A DNA stretch of 38,169 bases from assembly GCA_007694095.1 (NCBI GenBank), contig RECI01000203.1, forward strand, positions 1-38,169. The letters run 5' to 3'. Positions 5,014 to 19,208 of this stretch are shown here, one piece after another. Every line of letters begins with the position of its first letter. The stretch's first letter is position 1. This DNA is from Balneolaceae bacterium (GTDB lineage Bacteria; Bacteroidota; Rhodothermia; Balneolales; Balneolaceae). The translations under genes and the position numbers were made by a program. The notes under the pieces were generated by a model. It was not told the origin of the DNA and made no database searches. It saw only the letters and a program-made list of their open reading frames with translations.

Positions 5014-5862
5014 TTATGTCAGCAGGTTTCTCAGAAAATGTAATCCTTCAGTTGCAAGTGTATCCGGGCTCTCGGCCAGCGGGCGCCAGATGGCAGCGGC
5101 CTTGGCAAGAATCTCGTTACCCGGCGAAAATGTTTCGATCACTACATGCCTGTTGTAACCGATATCTTTTAATGCCACTGCCACCTCTTTCCAATTAAAC
5201 TGGCCTGTACCGGGTATTCCCCTGTCGTTTTCCGCTACCTGGAGGTGGAATAAATGCTCGCCGGCAATACGTATAGCATCTCCCAGGTTTTTTTCTTCAA
5301 TTCCAGCATGAAAGAGATCAAATCCAATTTTGCATGATGGTTCGTTTACTTGTTCTATAATGCTTTTTACCTGAGACGTCAGGTTCAGAAAGCTTGTTTC
5401 AAATCGGTTCAAGGGCTCAACACAGATCGTAACTCCATGTGAACCTGCATGCTTTGAAAGCTTCGAAAGCTGGGCTGTAAGCAGATCCTCCTGTATTTTC
5501 CGCTCTTCAACCGTCATGCTCCAAAGGCGCCCAACCTCGGCATAAATCGGGCCTGCCAACACATCAGATCCCATATCCGCAGTTGCCTGAATTGCTTTAC
5601 GGATATATTCGATTCCCTGATTTTGTACAGACTGATCCGGGTGGACCAGGTCTCTGCCTGCCCCCATTGCAGCGCAGCATGTTACGCTCAGGCCATTCTC
5701 TTCAATAACCTTTCTTGCCGCCGGACAATCAAGTGAATCGGGGTCTTCGAGAGGCACTTCTATTGTGTCGAAACCCATTTCAGCAATCTTTGGGGCATAT
5801 TCTTCAATGATTTTATTTGTGACCGGGGATGTCCATAACCACAGGCTTACACCAAATTTCAT
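5014..5862 (-). CDS. Sugar epimerase/isomerase, tagatose/psicose 3-epimerase type
   Basis: A 282-residue TIM-barrel protein with no signal peptide, so probably cytosolic. It fits the D-tagatose/D-psicose 3-epimerase family, whose members epimerise ketoses at C3 using a metal ion. The four expected metal ligands can be placed: Glu149 (CVEPLNRFE), Asp182 (GFDLFHAG), His206 (LFHLQVAE) and Glu243 (VIETFSPG). The spacing agrees with the known family pattern. The GIPGTGQFNW segment after the histidine is also typical. The gene stands alone on the minus strand and diverges from the oxidoreductase at 6294 across a 431-base gap, which may hold promoters for both. A role in handling ketosugars made by the neighbouring oxidoreductases is plausible but inferred. 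Hydroxypyruvate isomerase activity is an alternative. Confidence 0.85.
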   Translation of the reverse strand: MKFGVSLWLWTSPVTNKIIEEYAPKIAEMGFDTIEVPLEDPDSLDCPAARKVIEENGLSVTCCAAMGAGRDLVHPDQSVQNQGIEYIRKAIQATADMGSDVLAGPIYAEVGRLWSMTVEERKIQEDLLTAQLSKLSKHAGSHGVTICVEPLNRFETSFLNLTSQVKSIIEQVNEPSCKIGFDLFHAGIEEKNLGDAIRIAGEHLFHLQVAENDRGIPGTGQFNWKEVAVALKDIGYNRHVVIETFSPGNEILAKAAAIWRPLAESPDTLATEGLHFLRNLLT

Positions 5863-11467: not shown

Positions 11468-11572
11468 ATGACACCATTCAAATCACGGTTGATCGAAGAT
11501 ATGAGGCACTTCGGTTATTCCCAACGCACCCAGGATACTTATCTATCTGCGATACGCATTATCTGCCGGTAA
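11468..11572 (+). pseudogene. N-terminal remnant of a tyrosine integrase/recombinase
   Basis: A strong ribosome-binding site (ggagg) precedes an ATG that opens a 34-residue frame beginning MTPFKSRLIEDMRHFGYSQR and continuing with TQDTYLSAIR before TAA at 11570. This matches the start of the SAM-like N-terminal domain of XerC/D- and integron-type tyrosine recombinases, where an R-T-x-x-x-Y-x-x-A-I/V pattern is usual. The catalytic domain is absent downstream, where repeat DNA begins, so only a decayed stump remains. It is direct evidence of past mobile-element activity in this degraded stretch. Confidence 0.65.
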
Positions 11573-11605
11573 ACTGGGTTTGTCCAGTTTATAGAGGGTC
11601 GGTAT

Positions 11606-11850
11606 ATGATACCAACATTTTGGAATTTGGAATTTGTGATTTGCCCCGAAGGGATCACTTTGTGGGAATTTCGTTAACACGCCTGTCCCGATATTTCTGT
11701 CGGGGTTCAAAAAATGAGCCGGATTATCCGGATCAGGTTATTTGATATTTTCGACTATTGAGAGATTAATCGTCCCTGCATCATCGTAAAATGTCCCGGA
11801 TAGGTACAGATATAGGGGTATGATCCCGGTGGCGGAACAGTTACTGTAAC
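11606..11850. repeat. Copy A of a direct repeat carrying a gene 3' end
   Basis: This stretch repeats the sequence at 14481-14660 in the same orientation. Both begin atgataccaacattttggaa, continue through an AT-rich spacer, then ggatcaggttatttgatatt, and end inside the last codons of the cupredoxin fusion gene. Copy A carries about 55 extra bases near 11680-11725. About 2.9 kb of pseudogenes, vapBC and one small gene lie between the copies. Confidence 0.85.
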
Positions 11851-11853
11851 GGT
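11755..11853 (-). pseudogene. Duplicated C-terminal end of the cupredoxin fusion gene
   Basis: On the minus strand the sequence encodes VPPPGSYPYICTYPGHFTMM and QGRLISQ followed by TAG. Those 27 residues are the same as the C-terminus of the 1153-residue protein at 14566-18027. Similarity fades a few codons further upstream, at about 11853. The copper ligands Cys, His and Met are kept but the rest of the gene is missing. It is a stump of a second copy or a product of recombination between repeats. Silent differences between the copies show the duplication is not brand new. Confidence 0.85.
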
Positions 11854-12068
11854 TTGGCACTTAAGCAGTTTTGCCAAGTCAAGCTGATAAAGTGGTGAAT
11901 ACTCAGGATTTCTACCGGTTTAGCAGTATTAATAAAGGCAATAAATGGCAAAATCTGATTGATTCGAAGAACCGCGAAGCGCTATGCTTGTTAGCGGTAC
12001 AATATTTCTTTGATTAAAGCAGTTTTGTGTATAGATTACAATTCCAATACACATTAAAAATGCTTGCT

Positions 12069-12266
12069 ATGAGAACCAATATAGTTATTGATGACGATTT
12101 AATGGAAGAAGCTTTGAAAGTCAGCCGATTAAAAACCAAGAAGGATGCAGTTGAGGAGGGCTTGCGATTGTTGGTACAGCGTAAAAAACAGGAAAATATC
12201 AAAAACCTGCGAGGTAAACTCCAATGGCGCGGTGATCTGGAACAAATGAGAACCGACGATAAATGA
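12069..12266 (+). CDS. vapB: VapB-type antitoxin
   Basis: A 65-residue protein matching the type II antitoxin family found with PIN toxins (DUF2191/VapB). MRTNIVIDDDLMEEALKVSR is the typical ribbon-helix-helix N-terminus that binds DNA, followed by KKDAVEEGLRLLVQRKKQ. The C-terminal tail (GDLEQMRTDDK) would wrap the toxin. I chose the ATG at 12069 because the family starts with R-T-N-x-x-I-D; in-frame starts at 12027 and 12060 would only add unrelated residues. The stop overlaps the toxin start by four bases (ATGA), the classic coupled arrangement. The pair is expected to repress its own promoter through this protein. Confidence 0.9.
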   Translation: MRTNIVIDDDLMEEALKVSRLKTKKDAVEEGLRLLVQRKKQENIKNLRGKLQWRGDLEQMRTDDK

Positions 12267-12658
12267 TCCTTGTAGACACCAGTGTATGGATTGACTATTT
12301 CAATGGGGTACAGACCTGGCAAACCGATTCACTTGATACCATCCTTTCTGAAGATTCAGTTTTAGTTGGAGATATTATTCTTGCCGAAATATTACAGGGT
12401 TTTGACAAAGACTCTGACTATAAGAAAGCTAAAGAAGCCCTGGAACCTTTGGAGTGCATTGATCTTGGGGGCAAGAAGCTGGCGATAAAAACAGCCTCCC
12501 ATTTTCGATTCTTAAGATCTAAGGGAGTTACCATTCGTAAAACGGTAGACATGCTTATTGGAACATGGTGTATAGAAACGGAGATAGAATTATTACATAA
12601 TGACAAGGATTTTGATCGAATAGCCCTCCATTTACCTCTGAAAGTCATCAAGAACTGA
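12263..12658 (+). CDS. vapC: VapC-type PIN-domain ribonuclease toxin
   Basis: A 131-residue PIN-domain protein, the normal VapC length. The acidic metal-binding residues are all present: Asp5 (LVDTSVWIDYF), Glu42 (AEILQGF), Asp96 (VDMLIGTWC) and Asp114 or Asp116 (HNDKDFD). VapC toxins are Mg-dependent ribonucleases that cut tRNA or rRNA and are held inactive by the cognate VapB. The gene overlaps the antitoxin by four bases. It looks intact although everything around it is decayed, which fits selection on an addictive module. The RNA target cannot be told from sequence. Confidence 0.92.
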   Translation: MILVDTSVWIDYFNGVQTWQTDSLDTILSEDSVLVGDIILAEILQGFDKDSDYKKAKEALEPLECIDLGGKKLAIKTASHFRFLRSKGVTIRKTVDMLIGTWCIETEIELLHNDKDFDRIALHLPLKVIKN

Positions 12659-12702: not shown

Positions 12703-13550
12703 CGAAAGCAAGAAACTACGCCGGCTGTTGATGTGCTGGCACTCCTGATGGAAGACCAGCTCGAACGGGAATCTCCAACCCCGGTACCTCTCCGGTTCGG
12801 CTTTGCTCATGATGTTAATCTTGATATTCACAGAAATGGAACATGGACCGAATTGGAAGATGGCGCCCGGCTTTGACGGCTCAGCATCCATACTGCCGGG
12901 ACCTATTCCATTAATCTGATTTATGATGAATTCTTTTTGCCGCCAGAGGCGACATTTTTTGTGTATAACAGTGACAGAACAGAGGTAATCGGCGTCTTTA
13001 CCGAGCTTAACAACAAGGAATATGGCAAGTTTTCAACGTCGCCTGTGGCCGGAGATGTAAGTATTCTGGATATTTATGTTTAATTATGAAAGCCCCGGAT
13101 GCAATAATAACAATGATCCAACACATCAGACAGTATCCGGTATAACCCCCCGGGCAATTATGCCGTCATCGATATTGCCTTGCTCCAGTTATCCAGTAAA
13201 CACCATCCCACCTATAACACTTATTATTTGGGTTGGACCTCTCAAAACGTGACTCCTCAGTCTTCCACAATTATTCATTATCCAAGGGGTGATACAAAGA
13301 AAATTACCCGGAATTCCCCACTGCATTCCAACTTTATCCGAATTATCCCAACCCATTCAATCCGGCAACCAACATCCGATGTGATCTGCCGGAGACGATT
13401 CATGTCCGGTTAACCGTTTATGATATGTTGGGCAGGGAAATTGCCCGGCTTGCCGACGGCATCTTGCCTGCCGGTGAGCATCAATCCATAAGGGTCGCTC
13501 GTTCAAATCCCAGCGGGATGTACATCATTCGCCTGGAAGCAGGCGCGTAA
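12703..13550 (+). pseudogene. Broken lysyl-endopeptidase-like serine protease with T9SS tail
   Basis: Reading from about 12709 gives the pro-region of a secreted trypsin-like endopeptidase: RFGFAHDVNLDI, GTWTELEDGARL, then SINLIYDEFFLPPEATFFVY. A TGA at 12874-12876 replaces the expected tryptophan codon. A TAA at 13081 marks a frameshift. The frame then resumes with DIALLQLSSK, where the Asp fits the catalytic aspartate, followed by YYLGWTSQN and IIHYPRGDTKKITRN. After about 13320 the frame shifts again into a T9SS sorting domain: QLYPNYPNPFNPATNIRCDL, VYDMLGREIARL and SGMYIIRLEAGA, ending at TAA 13548-13550. The signal peptide, catalytic His region and catalytic Ser region are missing. It is a dead gene, and shows that the lineage uses type IX secretion. 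Confidence 0.8.
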
Positions 13551-14361: not shown

Positions 14362-14540
14362 AGTGTCTTTAAATTAAAATTCTGACCAAAAATGGGAAAA
14401 ATCCAAAATTCAAGCACCAAATTTCAAACATTTTCTACCCACAATGCAGGCCTCGAATTTTCGAAAAAGTCAGATAAAAAATGATACCAACATTTTGGAA
14501 TTTGTTATTTGCCCCGAGGGATCACTTTGTGGGAAATTCC
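14362..14540. repeat. Dispersed AT-rich intergenic repeat
   Basis: This stretch shares blocks with 32916-33078: tttaaattaaaattctgacc, caagcaccaaatttcaaaca, a cctcga segment and aagtcagata. Related inverted copies lie at 19452-19482 and 19586-19675. A gccccgagggatcactttgt block also appears at 11644-11664 and, inverted, at 32957-32981. The blocks are shuffled between copies, so this is a mosaic repeat family. Confidence 0.75.
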
Positions 14541-14660
14541 GGATCAGGTTATTTGATATTTTCGACTACTGAGAGATTAATCGCCCCTGCATCATTGTAA
14601 AATGTCCCGGATAGGTACAGATATAGGGATATGATCCCGGAGGCGGAACCGTAATCGTTA
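14481..14660. repeat. Copy B of the direct repeat with the cupredoxin gene end
   Basis: This is the resident copy of the sequence also found at 11606-11850. It starts atgataccaac, passes through the AT-rich spacer and covers the last 32 or so codons of the large fusion gene on the minus strand. Confidence 0.85.
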
Positions 14661-17600
14661 CATAGGCAACTTCTCCCGGTCTTGCCAGCCTGGTGTATCC
14701 AAAAATTTTCCCATAGGCTTCATCATCTACGGGAATATATTCATGTTGAAGAGCTCTCAGCGCGGCCATCCCGACAGGATAAATGTCACCTTCAGCATAA
14801 ACAAATACGACATTATGGGGCATTTCACTTTGTGTGTTGTCGTATCGGATCGTGATTGTAGAACCTGCAGCCGCCCTGATTTCGGTGACATCATAGCTTA
14901 AATCGGCGCCAAAAGATCTCACCACCAGTGTATCGCCATCAGCCGCTGTAACAGTTGCAGCTTCATCGTATGGCACTTCTCTTTGTGCTGGTGCAGCGGG
15001 CTCGGTGTGTACATGGCGTTCTTCGGTTGCAGGAGGCTGAACCTCCTCTGCTATGGCATCAAATAACCCCGGTCGGCCCCATTTATCTGCCAATTCCATC
15101 AGTTTCTCACGGAACTCATCGGGCATAGTTCGGCTCATTTCCCGCAGGTGCTCTACAAGGAATTCATCCAGGATTGGTTTTTTATCTTCCTGCCATTCTT
15201 CTGTAAGCCCATCAAGAAATGCTGATCCGATGATCACATCCGCAGATTCAAGGCTGAGCAGCATACCAGCCACAACTAAATCGGGCCTTTCTCCCATGGC
15301 AAAATGTCTGGCTACTCTTTCGACCACAGTTGATACATGATTTTTGTAATCATCGTCAGCACTATCTGAAAAAGTTTTCAGCAATACATTTTCTAAAAAT
15401 TCTGTTTCATTTCGCGCGGCTGCAATCGAAATACCGTCCCTGAGCCAGCGGTCGTTTACATTTTCTTCCAGCATCACCATTTCGGACAGTGCCCTTCCAA
15501 CCCGCGCGTCTGCCGGCATTTCTGCAGCCGCAAGCAGTGCCTCAAGCTTTACCTTGGGATCGGCATTAAACATGAGCCTTGCCGGCAGGGTATAACCCAT
15601 TTTACCCGGCGCATCACGCGTAGGGAAAAAGCCTGCTGCAATAACCTCTTCCAGCATTTGCCGGTTTCGTGGCAGCACTATTAATGCGGCCCGCCGCACG
15701 GAGGAAGCAGGGTGGTACAAAGCCCTCACTACAGCTTTCGTCACATCCGGGTTGCTGTCGTGAATCAGGCCAAGGCCGTGAAGGGTCCAAAGAGCGTGAA
15801 GTGCGCCGGGATTCAGTCCAAGGTCATCAACCCTTTGGTCAGCCAACAGATCGAGGAGTTCGGAAGTTACATCATCATTCCCTCTTTCTACCAGCAATCT
15901 CTGGGCAGTGAGCCTCCAGAACATGTTGTCATTACCCAATGCTTCTACCAATTGGTCAGGCGATGCATCCTTAAGGTTGAGCGATTGTTCATGACTGGCA
16001 TCTTTGTGTACTATACGATAGATGCGGGCATGTTTTTGGTCGCGAAGTTCATTGATATACGCGTTGCCTTCCCCGGTTTCAAAATCAGGAGGGGTGGGGT
16101 TGTGCTGTATAATCAGGTTGTACCAATCCAGAACCCAAAGTGCGCCATCGGGGCCAACTCTCGATTGAATGGGGGAGAACCATTCATCACGGCTTGCCAT
16201 CTTGTTCCAGGTATTTAGGGCGCGATAAGTGCTCCCGTGCGGCTCCAGGATAAACGACCCTAACAGATGGCCGGTTGGCTCGGATACGAATGCTTTCCGG
16301 TTCCAGTAAGATTGAGGAAAATCACGGGCGGTATAAACTTCAAAACCGGAACCTGCTGTATACCTGCCATGCTGGTCAACCTGGCGAACTTCTTCAAAAA
16401 GCGGAAAAATTCTGTTTGTATTTGCGATCATAGGCAGACGGGGTTTTTGCCCGAAACCACGAATCAAATCATAATACCGGTTGGGGATTACACTGTGTAC
16501 AGGAACATCAAGGTTTGCCGTTGAACCAAAAACGATGCCTTCTTCATTGAAATGAATGCCCCAGGTATTGTTGCTTGTGTTGGAAATGTATTCAAGTTTT
16601 GATCCATCGGGCCGGAACCTGTAGAATCCGCTGCTGAAGCGGTGGTCTTCATCGCCAACGGTTCCTTCAAACGCAGAATATCCCACCGTACCCCAGATCT
16701 GGTTATCGAATCCATACCGGAGGTTGCTCGGCCCGGCGTGTGTATCGAAGGTGCCCCAGCCGGTGAAAAGTACCTCGCGGTAATCGGCTATTCCGTCTCC
16801 GGTTGTATCTTTGAAGAAGATAAAGTCAGGCGCCTGTGCAACAATCACACCGCCATTTACAAGCACCAGGCCGGTCGGAATATTAAGCCCTTCCACAAAA
16901 GTGGTAACTTTGTCAGCCCGTCCGTCTCCGGTTGTATCTTCCAGTATTTTGATGCGGTCGCTCCCTGTACGGTCATCTGTAAATTTGTTTGGATAATCAA
17001 CTGTTTCGAGAACCCAAAGCCTGCCCTGCTCATCCCATGTGAGATCGATAGGGTTAATAACCTGCTCTTCGGATGCGAACAGTTCAACTCGAAAATCGGG
17101 ATGGGTAACAATGAGCTGCCAGGATTCTTCGGGGCTGAGCGGGTTTTGGACTTCAGTAATCGGGTCGCCAATTGTTCCCCACCTTTCTCCGGGCGGATAA
17201 TAAGGAAGCAATCCCTCACCATATGTGATTTGAGGAAATTCAAATTCAGCTTCCAGTGCCCAGTCTCCTGAAACCCAGCGAATTCCCCTGTCGATAAGCT
17301 GCTGGAATCCGGGTTGTTTCCAGGTACGTTCATCATGCCCCCAGGCGGTGTAAAATACGCGTCCGTCGCCATGATTTCTCACCCACGTCCACGGCTCTTC
17401 ATGATCACCCTCAACTCTCACTGAAAGTACCGTTTTATCAGGGTTATGTTTCATGTGAACGTACGTTTCGTCCCAGCTTTCAAACACCTGGACACCGGAT
17501 TTAACCGGGTGATCGGGTAAGACATGCCTCACACTGAACGTCCCATCCCCATGCGCCTTAAAAGCGCCTCCCACAAGATTCACAAAGGCGTCAGAATCAT

Positions 17601-18027
17601 TAAAAGAAGCCGAGGCCGAGTGTACAGCAACCAGGCCGCCGCCTGACTGTACATACTGCATTAAATCGGATTCCTGCTGAGATGTTAAACCGGACCTGTT
17701 TCCGTAAATCATCAAAGCATCAAAACGTTGCAGGTTTTTCAGGTTCAGGTCATCCTGCCTGTCGGAATAATGGAAAAAGATTCCCTGATCAGCAAAATTT
17801 GAAACAATCACACGAAGCCGTTCTCTTGGCTGGTGATGGCCTTCATCACCAAGAAAAAGCACATGGAGGCGGTCAGGCAATTCTGCCTGTGCCTGAAGAT
17901 GTTCATAATCCGTTACTTCCACTGCTGTATTATTTGTTGCAGCAGGTTCTGTTGAAGTACACGAATAGAGGAAGAATACAGATGCAAGCAAAACACTGCT
18001 TGATCCAAAAAAGAAGAATCTGGACAT
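14566..18027 (-). CDS. ThuA / beta-propeller / HEAT / cupredoxin fusion lipoprotein
   Basis: A 1153-residue lipoprotein (lipobox LYSC, Cys23) with four parts. Residues 53-255 are a ThuA-like domain (HVLFLGDEGHHQPRERL, GGGLVAVHSASASF, RVFYTAWGHDERTW). Residues about 305-650 form a beta-propeller like the membrane-bound dehydrogenase N-terminus seen in Planctomycetes (RLWVLETVDYPN), with two Ca-binding-type loops (DTTGDGRAD at 364, DTTGDGIAD at 407). Residues about 670-1000 are HEAT-like helices. Residues about 1040-1153 are a type 1 copper domain with His1071 (MPHNVVF), Cys1137, His1142 and Met1146, at azurin-like spacing. Relatives often end in a c-type haem domain, but no CxxCH is present here. 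It may oxidise or bind sugars and pass electrons to copper (inference). The Gfo/Idh/MocA gene ends 51 bases upstream on the same strand. Confidence 0.88.
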   Translation of the reverse strand: MSRFFFFGSSSVLLASVFFLYSCTSTEPAATNNTAVEVTDYEHLQAQAELPDRLHVLFLGDEGHHQPRERLRVIVSNFADQGIFFHYSDRQDDLNLKNLQRFDALMIYGNRSGLTSQQESDLMQYVQSGGGLVAVHSASASFNDSDAFVNLVGGAFKAHGDGTFSVRHVLPDHPVKSGVQVFESWDETYVHMKHNPDKTVLSVRVEGDHEEPWTWVRNHGDGRVFYTAWGHDERTWKQPGFQQLIDRGIRWVSGDWALEAEFEFPQITYGEGLLPYYPPGERWGTIGDPITEVQNPLSPEESWQLIVTHPDFRVELFASEEQVINPIDLTWDEQGRLWVLETVDYPNKFTDDRTGSDRIKILEDTTGDGRADKVTTFVEGLNIPTGLVLVNGGVIVAQAPDFIFFKDTTGDGIADYREVLFTGWGTFDTHAGPSNLRYGFDNQIWGTVGYSAFEGTVGDEDHRFSSGFYRFRPDGSKLEYISNTSNNTWGIHFNEEGIVFGSTANLDVPVHSVIPNRYYDLIRGFGQKPRLPMIANTNRIFPLFEEVRQVDQHGRYTAGSGFEVYTARDFPQSYWNRKAFVSEPTGHLLGSFILEPHGSTYRALNTWNKMASRDEWFSPIQSRVGPDGALWVLDWYNLIIQHNPTPPDFETGEGNAYINELRDQKHARIYRIVHKDASHEQSLNLKDASPDQLVEALGNDNMFWRLTAQRLLVERGNDDVTSELLDLLADQRVDDLGLNPGALHALWTLHGLGLIHDSNPDVTKAVVRALYHPASSVRRAALIVLPRNRQMLEEVIAAGFFPTRDAPGKMGYTLPARLMFNADPKVKLEALLAAAEMPADARVGRALSEMVMLEENVNDRWLRDGISIAAARNETEFLENVLLKTFSDSADDDYKNHVSTVVERVARHFAMGERPDLVVAGMLLSLESADVIIGSAFLDGLTEEWQEDKKPILDEFLVEHLREMSRTMPDEFREKLMELADKWGRPGLFDAIAEEVQPPATEERHVHTEPAAPAQREVPYDEAATVTAADGDTLVVRSFGADLSYDVTEIRAAAGSTITIRYDNTQSEMPHNVVFVYAEGDIYPVGMAALRALQHEYIPVDDEAYGKIFGYTRLARPGEVAYVTITVPPPGSYPYICTYPGHFTMMQGRLISQ

Positions 18028-18077: not shown

Positions 18078-19208
18078 TTATTCCGGCAATGTAAAGTCTG
18101 GCAGTTTCATAATTTTTCCTCCATTCATGGATGATTCATGAGCCAGCAGGCCTACACATGTCCAGTTCGCGGAGGTTACCGCGTTCGGATAAGGGTCACG
18201 TCCTTCGATAATAGCTGAGACAAATTCGTGTGCAAGGTGCGGATGTGAGCCTCCATGCCCGGCCCCCTGGATAAAGGAGAGGTGGGCAGAGTCTTCGGCA
18301 TCGTAAACTCCTGCACGTGTAAACGGCTGGATCTCTTCAGGCAGCCTGTGGCCGTAATCCGGAACGTCCACGAGTTCGGGAATTTCATGTTCCGGTTTTT
18401 TTGCGGTATGAATTACAGGTTTTTCACCTTCAATCAGAGGCCATTCAAACGATTTCTTCGTGCCATAGGCATCAAAACTCTCCCTGTACTGCCGGGCGGT
18501 ATCAAAGAGGCAGCGGTAAATATGAGCTGATACATCGCTGTCTTTCAGTTTGATGTGCGCTGATTGAACGGCAAAAGAGCATCCTGATTTTTGGGCAAGG
18601 TCATCATTGATACGTCCTGAACCAAAACAGGAAACATATTCAGCCGGTTTGTCCATCAGGCCCAAAACAGGGCTTACCACGTGAGTGGCGTAATGCATCG
18701 GCTTCATACGCTCCCAGTATTCAGGCCAGCCCTCCATGTCTTGCGGGTGACTTGCCTGCAGGTACTGGATTTCGCCCAGTTCTCCCTTTTCATATAATTC
18801 CTTCACAAACAAATATTCCCGGCTGTAAACCACTGTTTCTGCCATTGTGTACTTCAGGCCGGTTTGTTTAACGGTATCCACAATCTCCTCGCATTCTTCA
18901 ATCGTTGTAGCCATGGGAACTGTACAAGACACATGTTTGCCTGCCCGCAATGCCATCAGTGTATGCTTCGCGTGCAGATGAATAGGGGTGTTGATATGAA
19001 CGGCATCGACATCCGGATTTTCGAGAAGTTCTTCGTATGATGTATATCGTTTATCAACTCCAAACTGGTCGCCGATCGCATTAAGCTTGGTTTCATTCCT
19101 TTGACAGATCGCGTACATGTTGGCATTTGGATGGCGCTGGTAGATAGGAATAAATTCGGCGCCGAAGCCAAGGCCTATGATAGCAATATTTACTTTTTTA
19201 TCAGACAT
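18078..19208 (-). CDS. Gfo/Idh/MocA family protein with altered EKP motif
   Basis: A 376-residue protein without a signal peptide, so probably cytosolic. The Rossmann motif is IIGLGFGAEF (residues 10-19) and NTPIHLHAKHTL marks the usual cofactor-side segment. At residues 96-98, where the family has Glu-Lys-Pro, it has Thr-Val-Pro (CTVPMA), so the usual catalytic lysine is absent. The C-terminal domain holds GAGHGGSHPHLAHEFVSAI, a histidine-rich segment that may take part in binding. It is the first gene of a minus-strand pair with the cupredoxin fusion 51 bases downstream. The missing lysine may mean a different reaction, a changed substrate or loss of activity. The fold is otherwise intact and shows no decay. 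Confidence 0.87.
   Translation of the reverse strand: MSDKKVNIAIIGLGFGAEFIPIYQRHPNANMYAICQRNETKLNAIGDQFGVDKRYTSYEELLENPDVDAVHINTPIHLHAKHTLMALRAGKHVSCTVPMATTIEECEEIVDTVKQTGLKYTMAETVVYSREYLFVKELYEKGELGEIQYLQASHPQDMEGWPEYWERMKPMHYATHVVSPVLGLMDKPAEYVSCFGSGRINDDLAQKSGCSFAVQSAHIKLKDSDVSAHIYRCLFDTARQYRESFDAYGTKKSFEWPLIEGEKPVIHTAKKPEHEIPELVDVPDYGHRLPEEIQPFTRAGVYDAEDSAHLSFIQGAGHGGSHPHLAHEFVSAIIEGRDPYPNAVTSANWTCVGLLAHESSMNGGKIMKLPDFTLPE

Follow-up and report, generated by a model that had tools for sequence, protein, structure and literature searches.

The analysed protein joins a ThuA domain, a DUF7133 propeller and helical repeats to a C-terminal domain predicted to bind type 1 copper, at the place where relatives often carry haem. 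Sequence comparison gave good support to the replacement of haem by copper at this tail position. The protein was identified in the window, the whole 38,169-nucleotide stretch of DNA from a Balneolaceae bacterium that was analysed. We consider it moderately probable that it is a multidomain enzyme that modifies sugars, is exported and probably anchored by a lipid, and delivers electrons from its propeller to the type 1 copper domain at its C-terminus.

Domain layout and the copper domain

The gene is an uninterrupted open reading frame on the minus strand (14566..18027) and encodes 1153 residues, the single chain that the original prediction had described. Its layout (ThuA, DUF7133 propeller, helical repeats, cupredoxin) was established from the reading frame, Pfam searches and an AlphaFold2 model built on an alignment of 40 sequences (whole protein, mean pLDDT 85, pTM 0.78). 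All features below are on the minus strand. A signal peptide with a lipobox-like LYSC, ending in Cys23, was recognised by eye (17959..18027), and the protein is probably an exported lipoprotein to judge from its sequence. Membership of the ThuA family at residues 58-252 (17272..17856) was supported by profile (PF06283, E = 5e-37) and by fold (Foldseek, 4jqs and 1t0b). The DUF7133/TIGR02604 propeller covered residues 298-676 (16000..17136; PF23500, E = 2e-120). An auracyanin/azurin-type cupredoxin was placed at residues 1033-1151 (14575..14931) from Pfam, ligands, alignment to 2AAN and Foldseek, and the Copper-bind model PF00127 matched residues 1040-1150 with an E-value of 2e-9. The Pfam search thus confirmed the predicted union of ThuA, propeller and cupredoxin in one chain.

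The predicted HEAT region held in part. AlphaFold2 placed helices at approximately residues 690-982 (15082..15960), and HEAT_2 (PF13646) was recognised at this region in close homologues; within the 1153-residue protein itself, no Pfam HEAT model scored over threshold, so that helical, HEAT-like repeats is the description that stands. A disordered linker (residues 992-1022, 14962..15054, pLDDT below 50) precedes the cupredoxin.

The NCBIfam model TIGR02604, "PVC-type heme-binding CxxCH protein", scored 240.5 bits against a cut-off of 122.2. A motif check of the whole chain found no CxxCH, as had been predicted, and cysteines occurred only at position 23, in the lipobox-like LYSC, and at position 1137. 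The automatic label is therefore wrong for the whole copper-tailed branch without CxxCH.

A ligand check located the four copper ligands exactly at the predicted residues His1071 (14815-14817), Cys1137 (14617-14619), His1142 (14602-14604) and Met1146 (14590-14592). All four aligned with those of auracyanin A (2AAN), the best match to the tail among solved structures (E = 1.3e-19). The modelled C-terminal region formed a beta-sandwich at residues 1024-1152 and was matched to 2AAN by Foldseek with a TM-score of 0.90 and an rmsd of 1.5, which identifies it as a cupredoxin fold. Across the 80 copper domains checked, of which 48 are fused and 32 separate, the pattern of one His followed by Cys-His-Met was kept without exception. 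The tail is thus predicted to be a type 1 copper protein from its complete ligand set and modelled auracyanin fold. It shares the fold, the four ligands and the CTxPGH...M motif with azurin and with the auracyanins of Chloroflexus and Roseiflexus (2AAN, 6KOL). Those proteins are free-standing, whereas the tail is joined to a 1000-residue enzyme. A free-standing auracyanin-like gene was also observed directly after a copper nitrite reductase-like gene at two other loci (L018 and L019).

Haem and copper tails among relatives

Planctomycetota and Verrucomicrobiota encode many TIGR02604/DUF7133 proteins. These have the same propeller, with ThuA before it, helical repeats after it and a redox tail in the same place, but that tail is a CxxCH cytochrome where the window protein has a cupredoxin. 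A search of the open-access literature found no described ThuA/DUF7133/cupredoxin fusion. Tail types were assigned by HMM and motif in 80 ThuA-propeller genes from a species-level genome collection, the best 80 of at least 590 loci. Among these best 80, 49 carried a CxxCH tail, which agrees with the claim that haem is frequent at this place, and 28 from several phyla carried a fused copper tail, so that the linkage of the cupredoxin to the other domains recurs in homologues. None of the 80 had both, and the two tails were mutually exclusive in the 77 fused genes. Of the remaining three, one is followed by a separate gene for the cupredoxin (L030), one is cut by a contig end (L065) and one has neither tail (L045). 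At one locus (L013), the domain order was altered to propeller, cupredoxin and then C-terminal ThuA.

In a tree of the ThuA and propeller parts, at least four changes between haem and copper were counted, two of them forced by well-supported (starred) branches. The same alternative was found in SGNH-propeller proteins, with copper tails in seven loci (L004, L114-L119) and haem tails in two (L020, L113).

The apparent exchange of haem and copper might come from phylum differences or from sampling, without the two tails being equivalent in function. Within this set of the best 80 from at least 590 loci, Bacteroidota/Balneolota mostly had copper tails and Planctomycetota mostly haem tails, and both this distribution and the size of the survey fit such an explanation. 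However, Verrucomicrobiota hold copper tails (L086, L104) as well as haem tails (L047, L064), a copper tail occurs in one Phycisphaera-type planctomycete (L059), and both kinds of propeller protein are present in the window's own genome, all of which make a phylum or sampling effect very unlikely. That genome encodes copper-tailed propeller proteins (C3, C35, C320 and C287) and haem-tailed ones (C280, C7 and C52). Since it keeps the latter, copper is no wholesale replacement. C287 (L155, 2057-4225), a protein of 722 residues, combines a copper tail of this kind with a propeller of another type. In another protein of this genome (C172, L003), the cupredoxin is N-terminal rather than C-terminal on a DUF7133 propeller protein.

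Among the matches listed, the closest came from Balneolaceae metagenome-assembled genomes at 85%, 83% and 70% identity. A genome belonging to the genus group of the window (G173/L109) has the gene pair of Rhodohalobacter sulfatireducens (L030) as well, and the host genus is therefore taken to be that of Rhodohalobacter. Within this genus, the copper module exists in fused and separate states. Enzyme and cupredoxin are fused in the window's genome and at L027-L029. The enzyme stops after the helical repeats in L110 (G172), L009 (G108) and L030, and a separate exported cupredoxin with its own signal sequence follows 45-49 nt downstream; these cupredoxins are 62-64% identical to the window's tail. 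In L111 (G169), the separate cupredoxin lies 1.2 kb downstream of the enzyme. The gene boundary and the cupredoxin signal peptide of the sister species fall at the window's linker, residues 992-1022. L051 and L071, the nearest fused relatives, fall outside the genus.

In a cupredoxin tree, the window's tail and the separate genes grouped with stand-alone auracyanin-like proteins (98/97), and the tails of Bacteroidota, Verrucomicrobiota and the paralogue L002 sat apart from this group. This split indicates at least two recruitments of a copper tail. The repeated haem-to-copper exchange at one position, together with the fused and separate states in one genus, argues that the propellers are electron-producing enzymes. 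The fused and separate copper modules of this genus are natural constructs for testing.

The propeller and a possible electron path

The best structural matches of the propeller were PQQ sugar dehydrogenases (VIA-align, Z 24-28); lactonases and DFPase, which are six-bladed propellers, scored slightly lower (Z approximately 22). Soluble glucose dehydrogenase, ThuA-like proteins and auracyanin were among the Foldseek matches of the protein. DUF7133 is a remote relative of the GSDH profile (hhalign, E = 5.5e-11) and has the six-bladed propeller fold in common with the PQQ sugar dehydrogenases of the GSDH family (PF07995) and with fungal AA12 pyranose dehydrogenase. Some of these dehydrogenases have an electron-carrier domain joined to them, a cytochrome in AA12 and cytochrome c on GSDH.

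Canonical PQQ binding by the DUF7133 propeller was considered and rejected. The PQQ-pocket motifs of the GSDH family (RN.QG, HGPRGGDE and R.RD) were present in most of the 12 GSDH rows compared but in none of the 113 DUF7133 propellers, and the invariant His430 was offset by one residue from the GSDH histidine in the profile alignment. A query search of the window's genome for PqqE gave no match over the cut-off; external PQQ could be taken up despite this. Since DUF7133 lacks this pocket in its canonical form, we can only infer that an oxidation takes place, and with which cofactor and substrate. No biochemical study of any DUF7133 protein was found in the open-access literature.

Seven residues (D428, H430, N487, W616, D634, H642 and R668) were practically invariant in the haem- and copper-tailed ThuA-propeller proteins. 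Since these candidate catalytic residues are the same in both classes, the enzyme half appears unchanged and the tail seems to be an interchangeable electron acceptor. Of the original proposal that copper stands in for haem as acceptor of a sugar oxidation, the exchange itself was upheld by the exclusive tails, the changes in the tree and the shared active-site residues; the role in sugar oxidation is plausible only. It draws on the PQQ-dehydrogenase fold, the operon of sugar genes and an oxidase operon that bears a cupredoxin.

The absence of the canonical pocket (113/113 propellers) and the similar fold scores of lactonase-type propellers would also suit a protein in which ThuA and propeller are non-redox, acting as a hydrolase, lyase, lactonase or sugar-binding scaffold, and in which the cupredoxin serves another partner such as a docked dehydrogenase. 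HEAT repeats are typical scaffolds, and several NAD-type and 3-keto-sugar enzymes are encoded nearby, which are in keeping with such a protein. However, haem or copper electron carriers have repeatedly been attached to the DUF7133 propeller. Moreover, a protein of the same genome (C52, L158, 606-3059) combines ThuA, a PQQ-type GSDH domain and cytochrome c in one chain and retains TRN and GPRG-type motifs; it is the best parallel for a redox role of the window protein. The repeated attachment and this parallel favour a redox propeller, and we regard the non-redox arrangement as rather unlikely.

If the propeller is a redox enzyme, it would take electrons from a sugar and pass them to the copper domain, or to haem in the haem-tailed forms. 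The copper domain would thereby take the place, and probably the job, of the cytochrome c domain of the haem-tailed relatives, and an oxidase or a periplasmic carrier would be the next acceptor. The ThuA domain might then act on the oxidised sugar, probably a keto sugar; alternatively, this sugar might be imported and processed by the co-encoded Gfo/Idh dehydrogenase and epimerase. In this scheme, we infer the redox activity of the propeller, the sugar substrate, the direction of electron flow and the order of the steps.

Other periplasmic dehydrogenases have been proven to donate electrons to cupredoxins, for instance methylamine dehydrogenase to amicyanin (PMC12723479). Quinoprotein amine dehydrogenases (2H3X; PMC12723479) use amicyanin or azurin as acceptor in the way proposed here; their cupredoxin is separate and their cofactor is known, whereas the cupredoxin of the window protein is fused.

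In the window's genome, genes for CoxI, a short CoxII of 149 aa, a cupredoxin and an SCO-like protein lie together in an oxidase cluster, and ActD of ACIII lies approximately 4 kb from a second CoxII. The oxidase operon with its own cupredoxin, together with ACIII, is a plausible electron sink. In this cluster the SCO-like copper gene adjoins the separate cupredoxin, and some cupredoxin-fold proteins carry copper, so the tail could instead be imagined to store, deliver or confer tolerance to copper, with no electron-transfer link to the catalytic part. We regard copper handling as highly improbable, because the tail excludes haem at the same place and the type 1 ligand sets are full, two findings that point to electron transfer.

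More speculatively, and with less confidence than for the window protein, DUF7133 may form a large periplasmic class with a non-PQQ redox centre and an exchangeable acceptor (haem, fused copper or separate copper) gained by several independent recruitments.

Neighbouring genes and debris

A gene for a Gfo/Idh/MocA-family dehydrogenase, with no signal peptide recognised by eye, lies 50 nt upstream of the enzyme gene (18078..19208, minus strand), and its orthologue is found in the same cluster of the sister species. An AP_endonuc_2 sugar epimerase/isomerase was identified by profile match (5014..5862, minus strand). At L027, the order is Gfo/Idh, ThuA-propeller-copper protein and, directly after the enzyme, epimerase; in G108, it is ThuA-propeller protein, cupredoxin, epimerase and Gfo/Idh. 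Most other copper-type loci have homologues of one or both partners beside them. Within the window, approximately 9 kb separate the epimerase from the enzyme gene, and this interval holds DUF1080 and Gfo/Idh genes and approximately 4 kb of debris. DUF1080 proteins have been tied to 3-keto-disaccharide hydrolysis (PMC9007349). The neighbouring sugar genes are no proof that the window protein oxidises a sugar.

The operon may have been split by a mobile-element event. A remnant of the cupredoxin tail, corresponding to its 3' end and lacking a gene body, was found at 11727..11877 on the minus strand (115 bp, 95% identical to 14538-14652). Together with the sequence downstream of it, this 3' end is present twice, at 11606-11877 and 14481-14652 (115 bp at 95% and 67 bp at 85%). 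Beside the remnant, the start of a tyrosine-recombinase-like frame (11468-11575) ends after approximately 35 codons. The debris also contains a small antitoxin-like gene followed by a gene for a PIN-domain protein, resembling a VapBC pair (12069-12658), and a remnant at 13360-13550 resembles a type IX secretion C-terminal sorting domain.
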